Assembly: GCA_029210725.1 (NCBI GenBank)
Contig: JARGFM010000018.1
Location: forward strand, 1 to 64,000
Reading direction: 5' to 3'
Length of the DNA: 64,000 nt
Origin: Bacteroidales bacterium
Lineage (GTDB): Bacteria > Bacteroidota > Bacteroidia > Bacteroidales > GCA-2748055
The translations under genes and the position numbers were made by a program. Each line of letters begins with the position of its first letter. Position 1 is the stretch's first letter. The notes under the pieces are model-generated. The model was not told the DNA's origin. It saw only the letters and a list, made by a program, of their open reading frames with translations, and ran no database searches. Shown piece by piece: positions 6,747 through 11,834 of this stretch.

Positions 6747-6806
6747 TTTGAATTACGCGAGCGCATTCCCCGTAGCTCTGCTGCGAGGTAAGCGAGCACA
6801 TTTAAA
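6747..6806. repeat. 60-bp palindromic (REP-like) repeat, copy 1
   Basis: This 60-bp unit runs from TTTGAATTACGCG to CGAGCACATTTAAA. It matches 9961-10020 at 59 of 60 positions, and flanking bases do not match. Its centre can fold as CCCCGTAGC / GCTGCGAGG with one mismatch. It sits in the katG-CGGC gap (6545-6860), which otherwise holds only the katG terminator. No REP-associated transposase is in the window. Confidence 0.8.
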
Positions 6807-6860
6807 TGGCGATATATGATACAAGCTTCTTATAAAAAATAAACTCAGGAGATTAATCAG

Positions 6861-7298
6861 ATGAAAGTAGGAATTATAATCTGCGACAGATACAGTAACT
6901 GTGCAGGAGGGAAATGCTTTCGGGCTATGCGAAACAGAGAAGGGGCCTTTGCTGTTTACAGTAAAAGTGAAGCCTTGGAAATTGCCGGATATACCAGTTG
7001 TGGTGGCTGCCCGGGTGGAAATATTGAATATGCCCCTGAAGAAATGATTAAGATCGGGGCAGAAGCTATTCATTTTGCGACGGGTTTTGTTGTTGCTTAT
7101 CCCCCCTGTCCTTACATTTCTCATTTTAAGAATTTTATAGAAGACAAATACAAGATAAAAGTGCTTGTTGGAACTCATCCTATACCCCAAAAGTATTATA
7201 TTACCCATGGGAACCTTGAAACCTGGCAAAGTGATGAGTGGAAGGAATTAATTGCCCCGACCCTGGCAGATGAAAAGATGAGAAAAGAATATGATTAG
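6861..7298 (+). CDS. CGGC domain-containing protein
   Basis: The 145-residue cytoplasmic protein matches the CGGC-domain family, small cysteine-rich proteins thought to bind metal and without an established function. Visible cysteine clusters are CDRYSNCAGGKC near the N-terminus, the name-giving CGGCPGG at about 52-58, and YPPCPY at about 80-85. ATG 6861 is preceded by a purine-rich AGGAG. It is followed after 75 bases by a methyltransferase gene, though a functional link is not evident. Confidence 0.8.
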   Translation: MKVGIIICDRYSNCAGGKCFRAMRNREGAFAVYSKSEALEIAGYTSCGGCPGGNIEYAPEEMIKIGAEAIHFATGFVVAYPPCPYISHFKNFIEDKYKIKVLVGTHPIPQKYYITHGNLETWQSDEWKELIAPTLADEKMRKEYD

Positions 7299-8325: not shown

Positions 8326-9108
8326 ATGAAAAAGTCATTATTAGCCCTGCTTACGCTTGTTTTTTTCAGCAATTGCCAGACAAGGACCTCTGAATGGAAA
8401 TCTCTGATTATTGACAACTCCCTGAAAGGCTGGCATATTTTCCAGGATGAGGGAACAAAGAAAGGATGGATCGTGGAGGATCAGATTCTGATATTTAACG
8501 GGATATCGGACATGGAGAGCGGGGAAGGGGATGCCAGCCTCTTGTCGGACAAAGTATATGAGAGCTTCGAGATACAGTTTGACTGGAAAATAGCGCCCGG
8601 AGGAAACAGCGGATTCATGTGGGGTGTCCAGGAGGATGATAAGTACCATTATCCTTATCAGACCGGACCGGAAATTCAAATCCTGGATCCGGCCATTTAC
8701 GATAAGCCCGGGATAGCTCTCGGCGGAGAGATAGAAGTAAATAATGCCCGGGAGGATCTGGAGGCTCATAAGCACTTTGTGGGGGCCCTGTACGATCTGT
8801 CGGCACCTTCTGTCCTGGACGCAGCCAGGCCTGCCGGCCAATGGAACTCCTACCACATAAAAATAGATTACAAAGCCAACCGGGGAGATGTGGTTTTAAA
8901 CGAGGTACTTGTAAATTCTTTCCCGCTCAGGGGCCCCGGATGGGATTCCATGGTTCAACAGAGCAAGTTCAGCAGACCGGAGGAGGCCGAATATCTCGGC
9001 GATGCACGCTGGGATGGTTTTGGCAGGTTCTCCAAAGGACATATCTGTTTTCAGGACCATCCCGGGGAGGTCTCTTTCAGAAATATCCGGATCAGAGAAC
9101 TGGATTAA
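8326..9108 (+). CDS. DUF1080 (3-keto-disaccharide hydrolase-type) lipoprotein
   Basis: The 260-residue product has a short signal peptide ending FFSNCQ, a loose Bacteroidota lipobox, so it is probably an exported lipoprotein. The rest is a DUF1080 concanavalin-like beta-sandwich. It has the family's opening LKGWHIF, then [10 protein letters not shown], the ligand-site-like TGPEIQILD, and the closing [22 protein letters not shown]. Members act on 3-keto-glycosides or bind carbohydrate, but the substrate here is unknown. Its stop overlaps the stop of the glucokinase gene by four bases, tail to tail. Confidence 0.88.
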
Positions 9109-9863
9109 TCTTCCAGCTTGTTGTAGTATTTGCTGACCATGGCAGCACCCACGATGCCCGCTTCATTCATCAGTTTGGCGGGGACTACTTTGGCTTTGGT
9201 TGTCAGATGGGGAAAGAATTTGTCTCCTTTTTTGCTGGCTCCTCCTCCGATGATGATCAGATCGGGCCAGACCAGTTCTTCCAAACGGAGCAGGTATTCG
9301 TTGAAACGTCCGGCCCAGGTATCCCAATCCAGTTCAAGCCTTTTACGGGCCGCATCGGTGGCATAAAGCTCGGCATCTGCTCCATGAAGAAGGATATGGC
9401 CCATCTCCAGGTTGGGGACCAGTTTCCCGTTGCTGAAAATCACGGTCCCCAGTCCGGTACCCACGGTGACCAGCAGCAGGGTTCCCATTTTTCCTTTCCC
9501 TGCCCCGAATTCGACTTCGGCCATCCCGGCAGCATCAGCATCGTTGACCACATGCACCTTGCAGCCGGTGGCCTTTGAAAAGAGTTTATTCAGGTTCTTA
9601 TCTATCCAGCTATTATCCACATTGGCGGCTGTGCGGGCCACACCCTGCTGGATGACTCCGGGAAATCCGGCTCCCACAGGTCCTTTCCAGTCAAAGTGTT
9701 TCGTAATTTTTCCCAGCACTTTGGCTACGGCTTCGGGGGTGGCAGGTTGCGGGGTAGGGATGCGATATCTTTCAGTTAACAGCACTCCTTTTTTTGTATC
9801 AACAATGGCCCCTTTGACTCCGGAACCTCCGATATCAATTCCCAGGATCTTCCTCAGTTTCAT
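9105..9863 (-). CDS. ppgK: polyphosphate glucokinase (ROK family)
   Basis: The 252-residue ROK-fold kinase phosphorylates glucose with polyphosphate (or ATP) as donor. It starts with the phosphate-binding [16 protein letters not shown], followed by [18 protein letters not shown], which resembles the polyphosphate-glucokinase subgroup. The sugar-site [12 protein letters not shown], the second phosphate loop VTVGTGLGT and the [12 protein letters not shown] adenosine motif follow. It lacks the cysteine zinc motif of ROK repressors. The ATG is only five bases from the target duplication of an IS inserted upstream, so its original promoter is now about 1.4 kb away. Confidence 0.9.
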
Positions 9864-9868
9864 TTTAT

Positions 9869-9877
9869 AGATTTAAT
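9869..9877. repeat. 9-bp target-site duplication, left copy
   Basis: AGATTTAAT directly abuts the left terminal repeat of the IS and is repeated exactly at 11293-11301 beyond the right terminal repeat. Confidence 0.95.
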
Positions 9878-9960
9878 CATTAGTGTCCACTAAATATTAA
9901 AATACGTTCTTTGAAATCCTTTGTACATCGAGGTTGTAGAGCTTTTTGGGTGCGTGACGA

Positions 9961-10020
9961 TTTGAATTACGCGAGCGCATTCCCCGTAGCTCTGCTGCGG
10001 GGTAAGCGAGCACATTTAAA
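9961..10020. repeat. 60-bp palindromic (REP-like) repeat, copy 2, inside the IS
   Basis: This copy matches 6747-6806 at 59 of 60 positions. The single difference (G for A) restores a fully paired stem CCCCGTAGC / GCTGCGGGG, counting one G-U pair. It lies within the left non-coding part of the IS. Confidence 0.85.
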
Positions 10021-10040
10021 ATAAACAATTAATAGATGAT

Positions 10041-10062
10041 TCCTCGCAGCTTGCTGCGAGGA
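10041..10062. repeat. perfect hairpin upstream of the transposase gene
   Basis: TCCTCGCAGC pairs with GCTGCGAGGA around a TT centre. The stem sequence is related to the 60-bp repeat (shared GCTGCGAGG). It sits 47 bases before the transposase start and could limit read-through transcription or translation into the transposase, a known device in IS elements. Confidence 0.7.
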
Positions 10063-10109
10063 GAATCAATTGAAAATAGTGGTTTTAGCTTTGTTAAAAG
10101 CGATAAACC

Positions 10110-11279
10110 ATGAATCAAGGCAAATATGTCTTTGCTCAACTTACAGATTTTCTCCCTCAAAGAATCTTTGACCGTATGGTAGATAAGTACCATGGAAACA
10201 AGTATGTTAGGTTTTTCACGTGCTGGAATCAACTTCTAAGCATGCTGTTTGGTCAGCTTTCCGGCAGGGAAAGTCTGCGAGATCTTATGATTGGTCTGGA
10301 TGCTCACAAGTCCAAGTATTATCATCTGGGATTTGGGAAAAGCGTAACCCGTTCCAATCTGGCTAAGGCGAATGAAAAACGGAACTGCAAAATCTTTGAA
10401 GAGTTTGCATACCATATGATCGACCAAGCTAGACAATGTGCGGTAACCCGAGACTTTGAGCTGGACATAAAAGCTAACGTATATGCCTTTGATTCTTCAA
10501 CCATTGATCTTTGCCTGAGTGTCTTCTGGTGGGCGGAGTTCCGCAAAACCAAAGGAGCCATTAAGCTGCATGCTATGTTGGATGTAAAGACTTCTATCCC
10601 AAGTTATATCTATATTACTAATGCTTCGGTTCATGATGTAAATATCCTGGATCAGTTGAAGTATGAAACCGGTGGATATTACATCCTTGATCGAGGTTAT
10701 CTTGATTTTGGAAGACTTTACAGGATCCATCGCCATGAAGCATACTTTGTTACCAGGGCTAAATCAAATACCCAGTTTAAACGAATGTACTCACACAAAG
10801 CCGATAAAGAATCAGGTGTACTCTCCGACCAGACAGGTAAACTTGTGACGTATTACCCACTGAAGGAATATCCGGAAAAACTTCGCAGAATAAAATACTA
10901 CGATGAAGAAACAGATAAAACCTTGGTGTTCTTAACCAACAATTTTGACCTGACTGCCACAGAGATCGCACTTCTTTATAAGTATCGGTGGAAGATCGAG
11001 TTGTTTTTCAAATGGGTGAAACAACATCTGAAGATTAAGTCATTTTGGGGAACAAGCCCCAATGCGGTTAAGATCCAGATCTATTCAGCTGTAATTGCAT
11101 ATTGCCTGGTGGCCATAATCGGTTACAAATTGAAAGTAGACCGCTCAACCTACGAAATCCTACAGATATTAAGCATCTCCCTTTTTGATAAAACACCTAT
11201 AAAAGAGCTACTTACGAATCACGATTACAAAGATGTCAAAGAACTAAATTATATACAGTTGAAAATCAATAACTTTTAA
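10110..11279 (+). CDS. IS4-like transposase with DUF4372-type N-terminus
   Basis: The 389-residue DDE transposase has an N-terminal DNA-binding region of the DUF4372 type (FDRMVDKYHGNKYVRFFTCW). The catalytic aspartates are seen in VYAFDSSTIDLC and YYILDRGYLDFG. The IS4-family Y-(2)-R-(3)-E-(6)-K signature is exact in YKYRWKIELFFKWVK. The frame is uninterrupted over a normal length, so the element may be active. Start ATG 10110 follows the hairpin at 10041-10062. Confidence 0.95.
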   Translation: MNQGKYVFAQLTDFLPQRIFDRMVDKYHGNKYVRFFTCWNQLLSMLFGQLSGRESLRDLMIGLDAHKSKYYHLGFGKSVTRSNLAKANEKRNCKIFEEFAYHMIDQARQCAVTRDFELDIKANVYAFDSSTIDLCLSVFWWAEFRKTKGAIKLHAMLDVKTSIPSYIYITNASVHDVNILDQLKYETGGYYILDRGYLDFGRLYRIHRHEAYFVTRAKSNTQFKRMYSHKADKESGVLSDQTGKLVTYYPLKEYPEKLRRIKYYDEETDKTLVFLTNNFDLTATEIALLYKYRWKIELFFKWVKQHLKIKSFWGTSPNAVKIQIYSAVIAYCLVAIIGYKLKVDRSTYEILQILSISLFDKTPIKELLTNHDYKDVKELNYIQLKINNF

Positions 11280-11292
11280 GTGGACACTAATG

Positions 11293-11301
11293 AGATTTAA
11301 T
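11293..11301. repeat. 9-bp target-site duplication, right copy
   Basis: AGATTTAAT is identical to 9869-9877 and directly follows the right terminal repeat of the IS. Confidence 0.95.
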
Positions 11302-11438
11302 AATGATTAATTAGATGGTTTAAGGATTTTAAAATTAGTTTTTTTTTTGTCGCAGCCTAAATTATTGGAGTTAAAAAGGCTTATAGTGGAATATTTTTCC
11401 TTAACTTTCTATAAAGCATTAATTCATACCAGACCAAA

Positions 11439-11834
11439 ATGTTCATGGAAGAACAGCCCATATATCGTTGGAATTCAAAAACCATCCTGGTGGTGGAAGA
11501 TGATGAATCAAGTGCTTACCTTCTGGGCACTTTTTTAAAGGAAACCGGCGCCACGATCTCATTTACTGCAGATGGGGATGAGGCTGTGGATTATGTTCGC
11601 AGGCACCCGGAAACCGACCTGGTCCTGATGGACATTCATCTTCCGAAAAAAGATGGTTTCACTGCCACCCGGGAAATCAAAGCCTTTGCCCGCGACATCG
11701 TGGTGATTGCACAGACTGCCTATGCCTTCTCCACCGACCACCAGGAGGCTAAACTGGCAGGCTGTGACGACTATCTCACCAAGCCTTTGAACATGAGCCT
11801 GCTGCTTGATAAGATGGACAGCTATCTCTCCTGA
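11439..11834 (+). CDS. single-domain response regulator (receiver domain only)
   Basis: The 131-residue CheY-like receiver has the acidic pair in ILVVEDDESSA, the phosphoacceptor Asp65 in LVLMDIHLPK, a switch Thr in IAQTAYAF, and the conserved Lys in YLTKPLN. No output domain follows and no histidine kinase is nearby, so the partner is unknown. Translation may start at 11439 or at the second ATG, 11445. Before the IS landed, this gene and ppgK would have been divergent neighbours about 150 bases apart. Confidence 0.9.
   Translation: MFMEEQPIYRWNSKTILVVEDDESSAYLLGTFLKETGATISFTADGDEAVDYVRRHPETDLVLMDIHLPKKDGFTATREIKAFARDIVVIAQTAYAFSTDHQEAKLAGCDDYLTKPLNMSLLLDKMDSYLS

Follow-up and report, generated by a model that had tools for sequence, protein, structure and literature searches.

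In the Bacteroidales genome studied here, a complete IS4-family insertion sequence (IS) lies between ppgK and a divergent response regulator gene and carries in its leader a second, 103-bp palindromic unit that has ten full-length copies in the genome. The reading we favour, with a probability of roughly 0.8, is that an IS4 insertion displaced the ppgK promoter and that a PATE-like unit, of the kind defined by anatomy as palindrome-associated transposable elements of Haloquadratum (PMC3119063), then entered the IS leader. Positions below are those of the window, the 64,000-nucleotide stretch of contig JARGFM010000018.1 that was analysed.

An IS4-family element upstream of ppgK

The complete element occupies 9878–11292 on the forward strand (1,415 bp, nested unit included) and is the sole full-length match to its sequence in its own genome. 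The left terminal inverted repeat, CATTAGTGTCCACT (9878–9891, forward strand), has identical ends in the relatives L068, L070 and L071 and is matched perfectly over 14 bp by the right repeat, AGTGGACACTAATG (11279–11292, reverse strand); in a repeat search the match could be extended to 18 nt at 94%. Exact 9-bp target duplications (AGATTTAAT) stand on either side, at 9869–9877 and 11293–11301. The transposase ORF (10110–11279, forward strand; 389 aa) is intact, with DUF4372 (2e-30) and DDE_Tnp_1 (7e-30) domains in a domain search, and matches the NCBIfam IS4 family transposase model at 3e-84. The original prediction, an IS4-like element five bases before ppgK with an intact transposase, exact 14-bp repeats and an exact 9-bp duplication, was thus borne out, although the interval it gave (9863–11301) is wider than the element itself, starting at the first ppgK base and ending with the right duplication. 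An assembly artefact is unlikely: the IS lies well within an 81-kb contig of a 3.8-Mb assembly (70 contigs, 98.6% complete), and the copies of the 103-bp unit have differing flanks. An Rfam search of 9850–11450 gave no match at E ≤ 1.

Every family-defining feature that we examined in its sequence places the element in the IS4 family. The YREK signature that defines the family, Y(2)R(3)E(6)K (De Palmenaer et al. 2008, PMC2266710), is present with its catalytic glutamate at transposase residues 290–304 (YKYRWKIELFFKWVK). The DDE triad (D128, D194 and E297, assigned by motif, not structure) has 65 and 102 residues between its members, within the family spacing of D(60–110)D(100–150)E, and, as is typical of the family, the element has a single-ORF transposase and a target duplication close to one helix turn in length (here 9 bp). 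Among the seven published subgroups, IS4Sa is a candidate: in a tree-free comparison its entry in Table 1 of PMC2266710 agrees best with the CATTAG ends and the 9-bp duplication. Related-transposase loci in many Bacteroidota repeat both the matching ends and an exact or near-exact 9-bp duplication, so these features are not chance; the duplication is likewise exact in most complete relatives. The nearest transposase that we found (L068) is 78% identical. Partial relatives are present in other genomes of the taxonomic family (L057 at G005:C86, L056 at G016:C399 and L059 at G019:C86; further ones are L058 at G014:C278 and L060 at G004:C190). In these a left or right end is present but the transposase is truncated, absent or past the end of the contig; none of L056–L060 has the 103-bp unit in its leader.

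A mobile 103-bp unit within the IS leader

The IS leader is 232 bp long, rather than the 117–131 bp of relatives with complete matching ends, because a 103-bp unit (9968–10070, forward strand) is inserted 3' of a TTGAAT hexamer (9962–9967, forward strand). Relatives elsewhere match IS positions 1–91 and then resume from 191 onward. The leader alignment places the extra 103 bp immediately 3' of TTGAAT, a region that runs uninterrupted as TTTGAATTG in several unit-free relatives. By this comparison the IS is a chimera, an insertion sequence carrying a second mobile unit; the original prediction had the family right but treated the element as a plain one, overlooking the nested unit.

Two G+C-rich hairpins are predicted in the unit, CCCCGTAGC-TCT-GCTGCGGGG (9982–10002, forward strand) and CCTCGCAGC-TT-GCTGCGAGG (10042–10061, forward strand), both from folding and from paired changes in relatives. 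Folding of the whole unit gave z = -3.8, and 5 of 26 pairs are altered on both sides between species with pairing kept, a number reached in 0 of 500 shuffles.

When the IS was searched against its own genome, 15 short matches to IS positions 80–199 were returned besides the IS; aligned with one another, they delimit a repeat containing the two hairpins. The ten full-length copies of the unit are each 103 bp long and 98–100% identical, have differing flanks and lie directly 3' of TTGAAT. Empty sites in sister species align contiguously, mostly gap-free, and several keep the hexamer; at several copies (L002, L007 and L005), excising the 103 bp restores the reading frame. Removal of intragenic units at the RNA or translation level, as an intron or by bypass, is unsupported, as any recent insertion re-opens the frame on excision of 103 bp.

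L002 (G000:C6:80566–80674) lies in an NrfD-like membrane protein gene and L007 (G000:C13:91966–92074) in an S9-type peptidase gene, both named by eye from the translation, and L005 (G000:C29:10132–10240) in an unnamed ORF. L006 (G000:C8:32978–33086) is within or at the end of an apparent gene, at a sulfatase-like C-terminus, and L010 (G000:C3:44819–44927) is in an ImmA/IrrE-like peptidase gene that seems to have been frameshifted already (both again by eye). A truncated copy in the window (6748–6840), just upstream of an ORF at 6861–7298, keeps the left hairpin half, the right half having diverged. In copies L011 and L012 hairpin 1 is preceded by an additional palindromic segment (AGCTGCGCTGAGCTCGTAAACTCGG), which makes the unit family modular. 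With a covariance model the unit family was detected in 14 of the 28 genomes from the taxonomic family and, among 80 genomes sampled across the order, in 1 outside it.

The insertion site and the ppgK promoter

ppgK (9105–9863, reverse strand) is intact and encodes a 252-aa putative glucokinase, known from sequence, that matches the polyphosphate–glucose phosphotransferase model NF045942 at 320 bits, above the cut-off of 250. Five bases (9864–9868) separate its ATG (9861–9863) from the left duplication, and the IS landed 14 bp upstream of the start codon in the short gap before the single-domain response regulator gene (11439–11834, forward strand; ORF and domain match). Throughout the genus the two genes are divergent neighbours whose short intergenic gap contains conserved boxes, and the response regulator lies a short way upstream of ppgK in sister species. 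Our comparison set comprised 13 same-genus ppgK loci with upstream sequence, from draft genomes, one per species (L037–L049; proteins 81–94% identical, the nearest sister being the 94% match). The IS was absent from all 13 sites, and rejoining the window flanks without it gives the same arrangement as in these orthologues.

A Bacteroidota-type box resembling TAnnTTTG, the promoter consensus published for this phylum (PMC7366714, PMC9330008, PMC9723704), lies 48–52 bp upstream of ppgK at 10 of 14 sites (the 13 orthologues and the reconstructed site of this genome), with a partial -33-like motif 18–20 nt further upstream. The motif is short and degenerate, and the boxes near -50 are imperfect, matching five of six defined bases. 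In the window, the probable native -7 box (TAATTTTA; 11330–11337, reverse strand) is a conserved block in the orthologue alignment and has a -33-like TTAG (11357–11360, reverse strand) on its 5' side. The insertion moved this box from -50 in the empty-site arrangement to about -1474. The claim of a clean insertion that parted ppgK from its native upstream region therefore holds, and, judged from position and conservation, native ppgK transcription is probably much reduced.

Closer to the gene, the final 14 nt of the leader are preserved by the duplication, so that the start-codon context is as before; with these 14 nt restored, the region in which adenines at -3, -6, -12 and -13 tune initiation in Bacteroidota (PMC6847099) is also unchanged. 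The insertion made a six-codon upstream ORF, MIKSIK (9860–9880, reverse strand), which starts with an extra ATG provided by the IS tip and ends in a TGA overlapping the ppgK start codon. We did not accept a sigma-70-like TGGACA-16-TAAAAT across the IS/ppgK junction as a promoter of ppgK, since its -10 and the start codon overlap and a transcript would begin inside the gene. On the other side, rightward of the insertion, the response regulator gene still has its own upstream TTAACTT box, which is conserved in the orthologue alignment. This gene is now downstream of the transposase and co-directional with it; we found no intrinsic terminator between the two, where shuffles of the region lead one to expect 1.1, which makes the absence uninformative.

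The nested unit as a PATE-like element

The unit looks like a PATE-like element, that is, a palindrome-associated, IS200/IS605-style non-autonomous element. At 103 bp it is too short to code for a transposase; its ends (TACGCGAG.. and ..GAATCAAT) do not form inverted repeats; and its two hairpins with paired changes are the near-terminal palindromes expected of a PATE. No target duplication is obvious, as removal of 103 bp fits gap-free or nearly gap-free empty sites, with an AAT overlap of at most 3 bp possible. No relation of the ends to an IS605-type transposon was found, and we therefore say only PATE-like. A profile search for Y1 transposase (PF01797) gave no match in the unit's own 98.6%-complete genome, and the unit has neither a sequence match nor shared ends with the Y1 loci of the taxonomic family; on these grounds Y1 was rejected as its partner.

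The unit borne by the IS is identical to the copy at G000:C6:80566–80674, and a C-to-A change common to these two is absent from the other full-length copies. Because the twins share this change, the unit moved within this lineage after the change arose. The simplest order of events is IS first and unit second, in place. Relative to sister species, with 13 of 13 sites empty, the IS insertion is recent, as the original prediction had it. The perfect repeats cited for that recency are a weak basis, being short, and the IS has been in this lineage long enough to gain the 103-bp unit, so it is no pristine newcomer.

Discussion

A single copy of a DUF4372/DDE-type IS4 element, a kind widespread in Bacteroidota, entered the gap between ppgK and the response regulator gene and left a 9-bp duplication. 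With the native promoter now 1.47 kb away, ppgK transcription would most likely be much reduced, with the proviso that the IS left end might provide a substitute in the form of a weak or fused promoter. A 103-bp double-hairpin unit would then have entered the IS leader 3' of TTGAAT. Its family appears to have been active in the lineage and may most simply have been mobilised in trans by IS200/IS605-type single-strand chemistry; the two added hairpins, which stand between the conserved part of the IS leader and the start of the transposase, may dampen transposase expression. The IS insertion itself is ordinary, another IS parting a gene from its promoter, and makes the ppgK site a natural test of the loss or rewiring of glucokinase expression in Bacteroidota. 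Of more use is the nested unit: a sharply bounded, target-specific short palindromic element with several empty sites in sister species, several intragenic copies and a mobilising enzyme that is not apparent in the lineage.

Alternatively, ppgK expression might be kept up or raised by a promoter reading outward from the IS left end, as for Bacteroides resistance genes. IS-borne activation is established in bacteria, where it depends on the host promoter type, and Bacteroides fragilis boxes have been named (PMC9330008); moreover, ppgK is still intact at 252 aa and 94% identical to its nearest sister, and the last 14 nt of its leader are unaltered. We nevertheless regard such activation as unlikely. 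The transposase reads away from ppgK, toward the response regulator, ppgK now has an extra ATG and a six-codon ORF ahead of its start codon, and in the 246 nt of the left end read toward ppgK no TTTG-N17..23-TAnnTTTG candidate reached 8 of 10 matches. Such candidates average 0.48 per shuffle, and shuffles thus usually give none either, so that this absence is only mildly informative, and the original either-or, with ppgK dependent on the IS left end or silent, is unsupported as worded.

The history and the kind of the nested unit also admit other readings. The sequence is compatible with either order of events, and the IS is complete with an intact transposase, so the IS could have gained the unit elsewhere, at another genomic site or in another strain of the lineage, and carried it along when it moved to ppgK. 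This is possible but doubtful: the genome holds no second IS copy, none of the IS relatives examined has the unit in its leader, and acquisition in place takes fewer events. As to kind, two short G+C-rich palindromes in dispersed copies, halves that occur alone (as at 6748–6840) and a hairpin loop found as both TT and AA would suit a REP/REPIN element of a REP-associated tyrosine transposase (RAYT) instead of a PATE. Full copies are, however, fixed at 103 bp, modest in number, placed 3' of a fixed hexamer target and in several cases within reading frames; no GTAG/CGTC tag was recognised at the hairpin foot, unlike in PMC3733652, and no RAYT/Y1 gene (PF01797) was found in the 98.6%-complete genome. 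We consider a REP/REPIN identity rather improbable. A newly described Bacteroidota family of TTGAAT-specific palindromic elements, spreading in a genome that lacks any Y1 transposase, moved by an unrecognised enzyme and silencing the IS by landing in its leader, seems to us very unlikely. We thus retain the reading of an IS4 insertion followed by entry of a PATE-like unit.

Comparison with known systems

IS elements that activate downstream genes, including those of Bacteroides (PMC9330008), share with this one a position between gene and promoter and a host of the TAnnTTTG type, but here no outward promoter was detected and the target is a probable glucokinase, not a resistance gene. With REP/REPIN sequences (PMC3733652, PMC3116915) the nested unit shares paired imperfect palindromes scattered through the genome; it differs in having only about 16 copies, a fixed target hexamer, several intragenic sites and no associated RAYT gene. 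Like the PATEs of Haloquadratum (PMC3119063), the unit is short, too short to encode a transposase, has palindromes near its ends but no terminal inverted repeats, shows no obvious target duplication and resides within another mobile element; the host here, however, is a Bacteroidota, and neither an end-sharing IS605-type transposon nor, in the genome, a Y1 transposase was found. With the IS4 family (PMC2266710) and its DUF4372 and DDE_Tnp_1 elements of Bacteroidota (NCBIfam NF033592) the IS shares the YREK signature, DDE spacing, a single ORF, 5'-CA ends, a 9-bp duplication and a size of 1.3–1.4 kb. Extra leader DNA has been called unusual in the IS231 subgroup, where passenger genes are possible (PMC2266710); the window IS differs from the IS4 family in bearing an extra 103-bp mobile unit between its left end and the transposase.
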